Part shown: positions 49 through 8,764 of the stretch, one piece after another
How the letters are laid out: each line of letters begins with the position of its first letter
Position numbering within the stretch: position 1 is the first letter of the stretch
Origin: Clostridiales bacterium
Lineage (GTDB): Bacteria; Bacillota; Clostridia; Christensenellales; Aristaeellaceae
Assembly (NCBI GenBank): GCA_016930575.1
Contig: JAFGGL010000005.1
Coordinates: forward strand, 1 to 48,137
Direction of reading: 5' to 3'
Length of the DNA: 48,137 bases
The notes under the pieces: model-generated
What the model saw: the letters and a program-made list of their open reading frames with translations, nothing else
Told to the model about the DNA's origin: nothing
The model's database searches: none
Made by a program: the position numbers and the translations under genes

Positions 49-1005
49 TTAAACTGCCGCAATCTTGGCAGTTAGCTCGGCCGCCTGCGCCGTGGTAATG
101 GTTTCCGCGGGGAAGATGTTGGTCGAGCCGGTGCCGTCCAGTTCGGTATACAGCGTCATACGGCATACGCCGTCACTGTCCGCATCGCCGAAGATCCAGC
201 CGGGGCCGATGATCTTAGCTTCGGTCGTTTCCGCGATACGCGCCTTGTAGATCTTGCCGACTTCACCGGCGTACATCTGGTCCGGGTTTACGTACTTGTT
301 CCATTCGCTCCACTCGGTGCTGCCCATAATGTCGCTGGATACGTCCGGATGCACGATGCCGGCAAAGAACCCGTCCCCGAAAGGACTGGTATTGAACCGT
401 TTCAGCGCGGTAATCGCGGCGCGGATCACCTTCGGGGTCAGCAGGCACAGCGTAGTAATGCTGCTGCGCAGGAGAACGGCCGTTTCCGTTCCGTTGCTGG
501 CCACGCTCGGCGCGTACATTACGTTGGTACCGCCGTTGAGCACCTCGCGGGTGATCGTGTCCAGCGTGCGCCCGCTCTGGGAACCCAGCAAGATCGTCGC
601 TTCGTCAATGTTGCGGTCAATGGCCGTCACTTCGAGCAGGTCGGTCAGTTCCACATAATCTCCGTACTGCTGGATCGTTGCCAGCACAGTCGATACGTTC
701 AGTTTCTTTCCGGTCGGTTTCACGCCTTCCGTGATCGCCGTCAGCGCTTTGGCCAGCGGCGAATACTTGCGGAATTCGATCGTTTTGCCGTGCCCGGCGG
801 GAATCGGGTACTTGCTGCCGAACTGGTCATGCACCAGGTTCGGTTCAGCGTTGTCGATCAGTTGGTCGTGATAGTACGTTTTCATTTCGGCGCTCAGGTC
901 ATTGCCCGTAGTGCCGGTGGTGTCCGCGGTCGTGTTCGCCGTGAACAGCGTCAGATCAAGCAGCATCAGGCTGCCCGTCTGTTCCTCATATAGCATGGTT
1001 TTCAT
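49..1005 (-). CDS. Phage major capsid protein, N4-gp56 family (possibly C-terminally truncated)
   Basis: This 318-residue protein resembles the N4-gp56 family of major capsid proteins, which assemble the phage head. The family-like block is residues ~40-260: an early AEMKTYYHDQLIDNAEP segment, then LVHDQFGSKYPIP, GKTIEFRKY, LTEGV-like and VLNGGTNVMYAP motifs, then EVGKIYKARIAETTEAKI. The ATG at 1005 has GGAGG about 7 nt upstream. It follows the scaffold gene by 12 bp on the same strand, the usual scaffold-coat order. From memory, family members continue with a further C-terminal domain (a YGVTE-type motif). Here the frame stops at 49-51, and the -1 frame continues with plausible residues to the window edge, so a frameshift or early stop is suspected. 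The family call comes from motif recognition only. Confidence 0.8.
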   Translation of the reverse strand: MKTMLYEEQTGSLMLLDLTLFTANTTADTTGTTGNDLSAEMKTYYHDQLIDNAEPNLVHDQFGSKYPIPAGHGKTIEFRKYSPLAKALTAITEGVKPTGKKLNVSTVLATIQQYGDYVELTDLLEVTAIDRNIDEATILLGSQSGRTLDTITREVLNGGTNVMYAPSVASNGTETAVLLRSSITTLCLLTPKVIRAAITALKRFNTSPFGDGFFAGIVHPDVSSDIMGSTEWSEWNKYVNPDQMYAGEVGKIYKARIAETTEAKIIGPGWIFGDADSDGVCRMTLYTELDGTGSTNIFPAETITTAQAAELTAKIAAV

Positions 1006-2043: not shown

Positions 2044-2055
2044 AAGCACCCTCCC

Positions 2056-2120
2056 CACCGTCTATCCGGCGTGTCTATAATCACCGTCTTTCCGGTGTGT
2101 CATGCGCGGTCTATCCCGCG
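2056..2120 (-). repeat. Array of three RNA-like hairpin repeats in the scaffold-gene leader
   Basis: Read on the minus strand, three 16-nt units each have a 5-bp stem closing a hexaloop. They are CGCGG-GATAGA-CCGCG (2120-2105), CACCG-GAAAGA-CGGTG (2097-2082) and CGCCG-GATAGA-CGGTG (2071-2056). Linkers are also repeated: TGTCTATAAT, TGTCATG and TGTCTAAAAT on the plus strand. Stem positions 2 and 4 change in both arms together, and one pair is G-U only on the minus strand, so an RNA made from the minus strand is favoured. The last hairpin abuts the scaffold Shine-Dalgarno sequence. Confidence 0.75.
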
Positions 2121-2146
2121 TGTCTAAAATCACCGTATCAGATACA

Positions 2147-2201: not shown

Positions 2202-2321
2202 TTATCTCGCGATTTTGACCGTCACATTCTGCGGGTATCGCTTTTCCAGCAACCGGAACCCGGTCACGATTACGCCCATCATCAGGCTCGCCTGTTCATC
2301 CGTCGAGCGATACCGGATCAT
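2202..2321 (-). CDS. Small phage protein translationally coupled to portal
   Basis: This short ORF encodes 39 residues, starting MIRYRSTDEQASLMMG and ending VTVKIAR. Its ATG (2321-2319) overlaps the portal stop codon in a TGATG arrangement, and AAGGAG lies 6 nt upstream inside the portal gene. The peptide is basic, with a central hydrophobic stretch, and matches no family I recognise. The overlap, the good ribosome binding site and the terminator downstream support a real gene. Position suggests a minor head or neck accessory protein, but that is only a guess. Confidence 0.55.
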   Translation of the reverse strand: MIRYRSTDEQASLMMGVIVTGFRLLEKRYPQNVTVKIAR

Positions 2322-3499
2322 CACCCGCTCCTTCTCGTATGCCCATTCGGCATACTGTTTGCGCTCGCGTTTTTACGCGCTTCCCCGGCCTGTGCTCCCC
2401 GCGCTGTCTGAAACGCATCCCCCAGCGCGTTGGCACGCATGCCGCCCGTTCCTCCTTCGCCAGCTTCCGGTGTGTTCTGCACCTCCATGCCGAGGATCTG
2501 CGCAATCTGCGGCGTATAGTTCGTTCCCTTGTACATGTCCAGCTCCTGCGCCAGCTGGATCACCAGCGGCGTAATCTGCTGCATCTTCTGGAACAGCAGA
2601 CCATTGCGTCCGATCCGCTCACGCACATCATCAATGCCCTCAAACTGCATCATGCTGAGAGCCGCATACGACTGATCCGCCAAGTCCGGCCGGAAGAACC
2701 CGGCGCTGTACAGCTCTTTAGCCGTCTCGTTCTGCACTACTGTTGAAAACGGGCTCTTGCGCTGCGCCACAACCTTGATGTCGAACACCGGAACGCGATA
2801 GCTTTCCTGGATAAAACCGTCCTGCGTCGCTTGCTCCGCCATGCGGTTTCCCTGGAACTCCCGGAACTTCATTTCTCCGTTCTTCCCGATCACACGGAAG
2901 ATGCGCGGCTCATTGTAAAACTGCCGCATCAGCTCAATGCACAGATACCCGACCTCCTGGAACGCCTGGTACCCGCGCCCTATCATGTCGCGGCTCGTCT
3001 TGCTTCCAGCCTCCTGCAGCGCCGCGATCGCGCTTGCGGCCGTTACGCCGCTCGCCGTGCTTCCCTGAGAAAAGTCGCGATTCCCGCTGGTCTCTTTGAG
3101 CTCCTCGACCTTCATGTTGCGCACAGCCAGGCTTTCAGCCGGCAGCTGCGCGCTCCCGATCTCCATCAGCATTTCAGACGGCGGCCTTGAGCCTTTGACT
3201 TTGACCACCTGCTTGCTGGTATCCAGGTAATCTTCAACGTTAATCCCGGATCCTTCCGTCTCGAAATACCGCTTCTTTGAGTTCCACTGTGCGGTTTCCA
3301 AGATCGCCTGGTCCATCGCGTCTACAAACGCCTGCGGGTTTTTGCATACGTCAATGTACCCGAACCCCGCCGGGGATCCTTCCACCGGGAACGTCGTGTC
3401 CATGATAAACGGGTATTGCCCATGATCATAATACCCGCGCTCCGCGTATTCTTCCGTATTCGCGCTGGCGTACAATACCTTCCCGCCGCAGAACTGAAC
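2321..3499 (-). pseudogene. Phage portal protein, 5' end missing
   Basis: This is the C-terminal ~390 residues of a phage portal protein, the ring through which DNA enters the capsid. Recognisable segments are VQFCGGKVLYASANTEEYAE, YYDHGQYPFIMDTTFPVEGS, PAGFGYIDVCKNPQ, a TASGVTAASAIAALQEAGSK stretch typical of these portals, and a QELDMYKGTNYT motif near the end. Homology stops around 3499, where the opposite-strand reverse transcriptase begins. The formal ORF runs on to 3604, but those extra residues are the antisense of the reverse transcriptase. The normal N-terminal part of the portal is absent, so the gene is broken by rearrangement or by misassembly. The stop overlaps the small downstream ORF. 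Confidence 0.8.
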
Positions 3500-7055: not shown

Positions 7056-7132
7056 TGGTGAGCCCGGCGGGATTCGAACCCACGACCTTTTGATTCGTAG
7101 TCAAACACTCTATCCAGCTGAGCTACGAGCCC
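7056..7132 (-). tRNA. tRNA-Arg(ACG)
   Basis: The minus strand folds into a cloverleaf. The acceptor arm is GGGCTCG/CGGGCTC with two G-U pairs, the anticodon loop is CTACGAA giving ACG (Arg, CGN), and the T-loop is TTCGAAT. The terminal CCA is encoded (7058-7056). The 3' end faces the prophage, the usual orientation when a tRNA gene serves as a phage attachment site. Confidence 0.95.
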
Positions 7133-7718: not shown

Positions 7719-7747
7719 TTGACTTGAAGCATCGAATGTGATACCTT
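7719..7747 (+). promoter_or_regulatory. Promoter of rplU-prp-rpmA, with ~85-nt leader
   Basis: -35 TTGACT (7719-7724) and -10 TACCTT or ATACCT (7741-7747) are spaced 16-17 bp. The leader to 7836 contains a small hairpin, CCGCT-CAA-GCGG, and may act as an autoregulatory L21 leader as in other Firmicutes. I could not match it to the known L21 leader fold. Confidence 0.55.
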
Positions 7748-7836
7748 ATTTCGGCAAGCCGCTCAAGCGGGGTTTTCAAGTGCGCCCAAATGCGCCGCCC
7801 GTCGTTTGGCGAGTTCTAGAGTTGGAGGTGCATGCC

Positions 7837-8145
7837 ATGTACGCTGTGATCCAGACAGGTGGCAAGCAATACCGCGTGACCGAAGGGGACATCATCTACG
7901 TTGAAAAGCTCGACCAGGAAGTTGACAGCACCGTGAATTTCGACGTGCTGATGGCGGGCGAAGGAAAGACGCTGAAAATCGGCAAGCCGACCGTCAAGGA
8001 CGTAACGGTGGAAGGCAAGGTTTTAGGCCAGGTCAAGGGCGAGAAGCTGATCGTCTACAAGTACAAGGCGAAGAAGAACTATCACCGCAAGGCCGGGCAC
8101 AGGCAGAACTACACCAAGGTGGAGATCACCGGTATCAGCAAATGA
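7837..8145 (+). CDS. rplU: 50S ribosomal protein L21
   Basis: This 102-residue protein starts [18 protein letters not shown], the hallmark L21 N-terminus, and carries the conserved C-terminal block [21 protein letters not shown]21 binds 23S rRNA in the large subunit. ATG 7837 has TTGGAGGTG 6 nt upstream; an earlier ATG at 7832 is out of frame, and upstream in-frame codons belong to the leader. The gene overlaps prp by 4 bp in the conserved rplU-prp-rpmA arrangement. Confidence 0.98.
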
Positions 8146-8480
8146 CACGCATGGTGATCCGGCGCGAGGGCGGGCGCATCACCCAGCTACAAGCGCTGGG
8201 GCATGCGGGCAAGACGGCCAGGGGGGGCAACCTCGTATGCGCGGCCGTATCCAGCCTGATGTACACGGCAGTCAACGCGCTGGAAAGCGTGGCGGGCGTC
8301 GTGCCCAAAGTCGTCAAAGACGACAAAACGGCGCTTATACAGCTTACATTGCCGGACGGCTGCGAAAGCCGCGACGCGCAGGTTATCCTTCGCACGGTGC
8401 TGCAGGGTTTGACGGATATCTCCAAGGAGTATCCGAAATTGATCAGAATCACCACAGAGGACGGGAGGACCACAACATGA
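8142..8480 (+). CDS. prp: Ribosomal-processing cysteine protease Prp
   Basis: This 112-residue protein sits between rplU and rpmA, the fixed location of Prp (YsxB). The catalytic pair is visible: His in ALGHAG (residue ~21) and Cys in [10 protein letters not shown] (~33). Prp removes the N-terminal extension of L27 in Firmicutes, and the adjacent L27 carries that extension. It overlaps both neighbours by 4 bp, which suggests translational coupling. Confidence 0.93.
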
Positions 8481-8764
8481 TGAAGCTTCAATTGCAGTTT
8501 TTTGCACATAAAAAGGGAATGGGTTCCACCAAGAACGGCCGCGATTCCGAGAGCAAGCGCCTCGGCCTCAAGCGCGCCGACGGGCAGTTTTCCCTCGCGG
8601 GCAATATCCTGGTACGCCAGCGCGGCACCAAGATCCACCCCGGCTTGAACGTCGGCAAGGGCAGCGACGATACGCTGTTTGCGCTGACCGACGGCATCGT
8701 GCGCTTCGAGCGCCTGGGCCGCAGCAAGAAACAGGTGAGCGTTTACCCAGTCGAAACCGCCTAA
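8477..8764 (+). CDS. rpmA: 50S ribosomal protein L27 with Prp-cleavable N-terminus
   Basis: This 95-residue protein starts [20 protein letters not shown]. The LQFFA segment before HKKG is the Firmicutes extension that Prp cuts after FFA so that the mature N-terminus reaches the peptidyl-transferase centre. The rest ([38 protein letters not shown]) is typical L27. GGGAGGAC lies upstream inside prp; ATG 8480 is an equally possible start one codon later. Confidence 0.97.

Follow-up and report, generated by a model that had tools for sequence, protein, structure and literature searches.

What is the array of small hairpins that directly precedes a putative scaffold gene in a clostridial prophage fragment, and is it as RNA that this array is conserved? 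The sequence analysed here, which we refer to as the window, comprises 48,137 nucleotides (positions 1 to 48,137 of a Clostridiales contig), and the prophage fragment occupies about the first 7 kb of this contig. The initial annotation had described three units in the leader of the gene that share a GAUAGA/GAAAGA hexaloop and a repeated linker and have different stems with compensatory changes. Reading of the window sequence confirms this description: the array consists of three hairpins with constant loops and compensated stems (Table 1).

Table 1. Head genes of the prophage fragment and elements of the leader in the window (coordinates in window positions; elements listed 5' to 3' on the gene strand after the genes)
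Feature	Coordinates	Strand	Sequence or match
Major capsid protein, N4-gp56 family	49..1005	-	TIGR04387, E = 1.1e-57; phrog_1357
Scaffold-position protein, 341 aa	1018..2043	-	phrog_13908, a family of unknown function
Portal gene (P22_portal), 3' part, broken at ~3494-3499	2321..3499	-	P22_portal, E = 3.7e-21
Linker plus 3' arm of a possible decayed fourth unit	2121..2136	-	ACGGUGAUUUUAGACA; repeat family D2
Hairpin unit 1	2105..2120	-	CGCGG-GAUAGA-CCGCG
Linker between units 1 and 2	2098..2104	-	CAUGACA; same in L010, L104 and L110
Hairpin unit 2	2082..2097	-	CACCG-GAAAGA-CGGUG
Linker with conserved GACA ahead of unit 3	2072..2081	-	AUUAUAGACA
Hairpin unit 3, abutting the Shine-Dalgarno sequence	2056..2071	-	CGCCG-GAUAGA-CGGUG
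Shine-Dalgarno sequence	2050..2055	-	GGGAGG

The gene downstream of the array is placed between the portal and capsid genes, and phrog_13908 is the only family that its product matches. The predicted structure of this protein (mean pLDDT 68.6, with residues 1-99 below 50) is all-helical with long helices, and from its position and make-up we infer that the gene encodes the scaffold. Comparison of the model to solved structures gave no match at E = 0.001, so that no RNA-binding fold is indicated for the protein. The portal gene, on the minus strand, abuts head to head at 3494-3499 with a plus-strand reverse transcriptase gene (RVT_1, phrog_1423). Each of the two genes lacks its N-terminal half, and no second match for either was found in the same assembly; the junction reflects either a misassembly or a prophage that is rearranged and defective. 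A tRNA-Arg gene (7056-7132) is located at the apparent prophage end, adjoining the host L21 leader, and positions 7746-8764 contain what by eye appears to be an L21-Prp-L27 ribosomal operon.

On the minus strand, unit 3 ends at 2056, the GGGAGG Shine-Dalgarno sequence starts at 2055, and the ATG occupies 2043-2041. Across the three stems, the second pair is G-C, A-U or G-U and the fourth is G-C or C-G, and because these two pairs vary, two double changes separate unit 1 from unit 2. The linker GAUU(U/A)UAGACAC occurs twice in the window, inside a 28-nt repeat (family D2; 93% identity, 49 nt spacing), and the segment adjoining unit 1 on the far side from the gene may be the remnant of a decayed fourth unit. 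Units 1 and 3 with the linker, taken as a pattern with at most three mismatches, matched only two sites in the 48-kb window, namely the sites from which the pattern had been drawn (0.00 matches expected in shuffles).

On the gene strand, the predicted folding of the window leader is more favourable than that of all 200 shuffled sequences (z = −3.92). In the predicted minimum-energy fold, unit 1 is kept and units 2 and 3 swap arms, with the Shine-Dalgarno sequence in an internal loop; the inner four pairs of unit 1 have probabilities of 0.82-0.89, and the hairpins proper to units 2 and 3 have pair probabilities of about 0.5. A fold in which units 2 and 3 merge and bracket the Shine-Dalgarno sequence could be read as a structural switch that works by the swapping of tandem arms, with no trans factor involved. 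Arm swapping, however, is expected from any repeats, and among the 64 leaders that carry a unit under the strict rules described below, only 17 have two or more units by rule and the other 47 have a single unit that cannot swap; a switch of this kind appears very improbable.

To compare the array with its counterparts in related phages, we gathered homologues of the scaffold-position protein from 29 other genomes (300 genomes of the bacterial family were searched), from 42 plus 80 virus loci, and from 28 loci of named Bacillota genome bins, mostly from rumen and gut; the latter are partly the same as the family-genome loci and were merged by duplicate removal. Scanning of viral contigs with a single protein found nothing, whereas alignments of nearer sequences did find matches. 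Of the 161 loci, 4 with fewer than 70 nt upstream were dropped and the remaining 157 collapsed to 116 non-redundant leaders. Among the 42 virus loci, 17 were dropped (16 with identical leaders, and L070, which is incomplete), and L114, which lacks a start, was also dropped. Start codons were set by script or by hand via the Shine-Dalgarno sequence and an LQxF motif at the N-terminus, a choice that may favour neat Shine-Dalgarno spacing, and some starts are surely wrong (L179, and L046 in the first pass). In tblastn searches, three scaffold proteins retrieved 3, 9 and 9 records, every one an unannotated human faecal contig, and no cultured phage was met among these matches.

Units of the window form (class I) were selected by the loop GGANAGAC alone, with the stem ignored, which yielded 26 distinct units in leaders. 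At each of the two positions that follow the closing pair, all 26 units form a Watson-Crick pair (CG 16, GC 8 and TA 2 at the first; TA 12, CG 11, GC 2 and AT 1 at the second), compared to 34% and 33% in the 98 distinct copies of the same loop elsewhere in these loci on both strands. Altogether, 63 of 78 pairs were observed vs. a permutation maximum of 49. In the class I alignment (A6, 25 distinct rows), the covariation score was 0.545 vs. 0.169 in shuffles (0 of 500 as high), and 28 cells were changed on both sides vs. 8.6 in shuffles; softer measures were weaker (4 double-change pairs vs. 2.7, 17/500; 9 pair types vs. 7.2, 29/500). The inner three pairs are formed in 75 of 75 cells, and G-U pairs make up 3 of 105 paired cells. 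Ahead of the stem, the G, the first C and the second C of GACAC are kept in at least 90% of the 26 aligned units. Ten of the 26 units have a stem of only 3 bp (−2.2 to −2.8 kcal/mol) and still keep the loop, and within single leaders (the window, L102, L110 and L123) the arms differ among units and the loop is constant.

These findings support the earlier claim of selection on RNA structure and not on sequence, in that the stems of the relatives covary and their loops are constant. Judged from sequence comparison, RNA selection on the hairpins is well supported, and the element is almost certainly a conserved RNA hairpin. Constant loops combined with arms that vary among the units of an array fit the recognition of an RNA hairpin rather than of an operator in duplex DNA; a dimer bound to duplex DNA would need constant arms, which suggests that the loop is read and that the stem presents it. 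A DNA element, whether single-stranded DNA hairpins or a series of dyad operators bound by a dimeric DNA-binding protein, would be consistent with the even spacing of units in the window clade, where 9 of 13 intervals measure 23 nt, with the few G-U pairs of class I and with the capacity of dyad half-sites to covary. Half-sites that vary within an array around a fixed spacer are, however, the reverse of a dimer operator, and the elements are strictly tied to one Shine-Dalgarno sequence; we accordingly disfavour a duplex-DNA dyad operator for its differing arms, and DNA elements in general appear very improbable.

A second form, class II, follows the scheme UC-stem-loop-stem-AGA (pattern TC-N4-loop-N4-AGA). 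All four pairs were formed in 29 of 56 leader candidates, vs. 12 of 3,164 elsewhere on the same strand and 10 of 2,564 on the other strand. This is the fair figure for class II, given that the set of 42 units was selected for four Watson-Crick pairs and is paired by construction. Within that set, double changes occur at all four stem positions, the softer covariation measures gave 40/500 (double-change pairs) and 78/500 (pair types), and G-U accounts for 0 of 168 paired cells, Watson-Crick pairs being required by the selection. The rarity of G-U pairs is of no help in telling RNA from single-stranded DNA. The loops of the sister clades read RCN..AC or CCCGAAA, and that of the window form GANAGA; the loops are of 6 nt in class I, a length set by the selection, and of the permitted 5-9 nt in class II. 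A shorter form, GUG-ACCUAC-CAC (class IV), was found in 5 leaders, and a loose regular expression (class V) matched 11. In a separate clade (L169, L171 and L175), the scaffold leaders contain a hairpin of the GUGUCCG-GUAUG-GACAC type farther from the Shine-Dalgarno sequence. The leaders of L024, L027 and L035 contain a long hairpin resembling CUUC-A-CCCG-GAAA-CGGG-GAAG and lack a class I or II unit next to the Shine-Dalgarno sequence.

Under strict rules, the 116 leaders comprise 21 with class I, 40 with class II, 3 with both (64 in total) and 52 with neither, and after the addition of two looser classes, 36 of the 116 remain without any class. In a tree of the 116 scaffold proteins built by a quick method, hairpin class clusters strongly, with 34 changes compared to a shuffled mean of 61.3. 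The window clade (SH-aLRT 95) has nine members, all nine of which carry class I, each with 2-4 tandem units. The interpretation in the initial annotation is supported in part: the stems of the relatives covary and the array is present throughout the window clade, but 36 leaders have no class. Some relatives also show what the initial annotation had named as evidence against it, hairpins that are absent or pairing that is broken: among human faecal relatives, the leaders of L184 and L185 are readable and contain no class I or II unit (a third, L183, was left out because its start was unreadable), and in class I, 20 of the 50 cells of the outer two pairs fail to pair.

Comparison of scaffold leaders to other sequences shows how specific the hairpins are. 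When hairpins were chosen by structure only, a GANAGA loop was found in 10 of 116 scaffold leaders, compared to 1 of 252 leaders of other ORFs, 5 of 2,259 random windows and 0 of 2,320 shuffles; for the class II loop, the corresponding numbers were 27 of 116, 4 of 252, 33 of 2,259 and 26 of 2,320. Hairpin energy separates scaffold leaders from shuffles (p = 7 × 10−17), but hairpins at or below −5 kcal/mol occur in 58 of 116 scaffold leaders vs. 108 of 252 other ORF starts in the same loci (p = 0.14), and energy alone was rejected as a marker for this reason. Because energy fails to separate scaffold leaders from other ORF leaders, the special feature is the loop with its covarying stem and not stability.

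Stability is nevertheless central to one explanation to which we assign a real, if minor, share of the probability, namely that a hairpin at the 5' end of the mRNA, combined with a strong Shine-Dalgarno sequence, blocks a 5' exonuclease and thus stabilises the message or boosts initiation, with no specific protein. Stabilising leaders of such a sort are known in Bacillus (aprE and ermC). An extended −10 box (at most two mismatches) is present upstream in 14 of the 64 leaders vs. 8% in base-shuffled segments, and because this −10-like box is enriched, the transcript may begin shortly before the hairpin, which keeps a stabiliser in play; in L036, L040, L043 and L046, the transcript start predicted by eye precedes the stem by ~7 nt. 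In the window itself, a rule-based search of positions 1900-2450 detected no promoter-like site. Against a stabiliser, loops are conserved among hairpins that were chosen regardless of loop, 3-bp units at −2.2 kcal/mol, which are weak for a pure stabiliser, keep the loop, and tandem units have differing arms.

The position of the units relative to the gene is equally specific. That the last hairpin touches the Shine-Dalgarno sequence, as initially annotated, is true in the window, and as a geometry it is general, with the end of the last hairpin within −2 to +3 nt of the Shine-Dalgarno frame in 46 of the 64 leaders. In 26 virus contigs (13 and 13; 388,713 and 388,517 bases), the class I pattern had 17 matches and the class II pattern had 8, and all 25 (17/17 and 8/8) were located 29-96 nt before a scaffold start; the reversed control patterns had 3 and 0 matches, and the narrow patterns found nothing in 2 and 5 of the contigs, respectively. 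These matches fall in one array per contig, which would also suit an antitermination site of the nut or put type, placed where the head operon begins, that modifies RNA polymerase. A hairpin that lies near a promoter and whose loop is specific to the phage resembles a boxB or put site, and the lambda boxB and HK022 put RNAs are likewise small hairpins with phage-specific loops near an operon start. The hairpins described here are, however, tightly spaced to the Shine-Dalgarno sequence of one structural gene, and no boxA-like element was noticed by eye in the leaders inspected, so that antitermination appears quite improbable.

In 308 genomes of the family, the class I pattern had 9 matches in 7 genomes (reversed control, 1), of which 6 were in scaffold leaders, two were inside open coding frames, and one was L191 (G050:C8:11902-11921, minus strand), a class I-like GCAUGACAC-CCCG-GACAGA-CGGG about 115 nt before an 80-aa ORF. 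This distribution shows no sign of a host regulon, which speaks against a host RNA-binding protein that regulates the phage gene through the hairpin. The class I loops include GGA, the core of CsrA sites, as a consequence of how the units were selected. The class II loops, in contrast, lack GGA, and CsrA (PF02599) was detected in none of the 7 host genomes that contain such leaders vs. 3 of 14 control genomes, two of the 7 being at least 90% complete and little contaminated. CsrA was rejected as the ligand because it was not found in these 7 hosts, and we consider regulation by a host protein unlikely.

The strict class II pattern had 0 matches in 391 genomes of the bacterial class, which means either that those genomes lack the phages or that so narrow a pattern misses them. 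Permissive scans of 15 loci with Rfam 15 gave no match overlapping a leader, and at gathering scores the window yielded two tRNAs and L21_leader only. We recognised no comparable element in the literature, as judged from titles and abstract openings, and the accessible sections of a 2010 catalogue of 104 structured RNAs (PMC2864571) contain no phage, head-gene or rumen match. The hairpins make up a family of structured RNAs in a broad set of uncultured gut and rumen phages, and none of the scanned leaders matched Rfam 15.

How might such an RNA act? A regulatory reading of the array is plausible, and the hairpin probably acts on the scaffold mRNA, through translation or decay. We lean towards a function that requires a loop-binding protein, and regard as evenly poised the more specific proposal that the array is a translational operator in the scaffold leader read by such a protein. 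The array would then act in cis, as part of the scaffold mRNA leader, with the loop as the recognition surface and a stem that only has to pair. A protein bound to the loops of units beside the Shine-Dalgarno sequence would alter the rate at which ribosomes start at the scaffold gene, and several units would allow several copies of the protein to bind. The protein, its target and the direction of control are inferred: the scaffold is a tentative candidate, coat is a doubtful one, and a host protein equally so. In the most speculative step, free scaffold, or another head protein, would be the ligand and repress its own synthesis, as is reported of P22.

In P22, free scaffold lowers its own synthesis after transcription, and we know of no established RNA target of this autoregulation. 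The window shares with P22 the portal-scaffold-coat gene order and a P22-like portal family, and the array is located where the work on P22 points for control of scaffold synthesis, so that a decades-old question, namely which RNA, if any, is recognised by a scaffolding protein, becomes testable. Autoregulation of the P22 scaffold is a published finding (Wyckoff and Casjens 1985, as cited in the accessible text of PMC5744158). The leader of P22 gene 8 (L181, 3852-3868) contains CGGC-AGUGUA-GCCG-AGA within the 3' end of the portal gene, and in Escherichia phage APC_JM3.2 (L182) a hairpin of the P22 type is kept with the loop changed to GGAGUA. The expected number of 4-bp hairpins with AGA directly after them is 0.017 per 25-nt zone, the zone having been picked after the P22 case was seen, and as a single case within coding sequence the P22 hairpin is only suggestive of a related element.

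Our working analogy is the coat operator of the MS2/R17 type, a hairpin that likewise lies where translation of a phage gene begins and is partly recognised through its loop. In single-stranded RNA phages, this operator is a hairpin at the start codon with a bulged A and a four-base loop. The elements described here differ from this layout in that they belong to tailed phages with double-stranded DNA, occur as tandem units and end upstream of, or at, the Shine-Dalgarno frame of the scaffold gene. A C-[A]-G step underneath the stem is found in all 42 class II units, but the selection built it in, so it does not point to a bulge. A further precedent is the autogenous gene 43 operator of T4 and RB69, which, in the accessible text of PMC3014915, is also an mRNA hairpin upstream of the ribosome-binding site in a double-stranded DNA phage, and in which the top ten bases, including the loop, are identical between the two phages and the size of the hairpin differs. 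That operator serves to repress DNA polymerase and consists of one hairpin, and its loop (UAAC) and protein are unrelated to those considered here. Should the array be read by a head protein, operator hairpins recognised by structural proteins would extend from RNA phages to tailed DNA phages.

A further elaboration, which we consider improbable, is that the array is an assembly sensor, in which scaffold or scaffold-coat complexes bind several loops on the scaffold's own mRNA. Head assembly would then be coupled to the scaffold message, and perhaps nucleated on it, as by the packaging-signal hairpins of RNA phages, and the loop and the protein surface that binds it would have diversified together across phage clades.

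The surroundings of the scaffold gene show one further recurrent feature. A phage Prp cysteine protease is encoded just upstream of the scaffold gene in, for example, L003, L013, L043, L049 and L103; PF04327 (Prp) was detected in 5 of 6 ORFs scanned upstream of scaffold genes, and a regular expression identified Prp-like ORFs in 46 of 103 loci. The 52-aa ORF at this place in the window, upstream of the scaffold gene, had no PF04327 match. The LQxF motif, present at many scaffold N-termini, resembles the start of L27 in the window.
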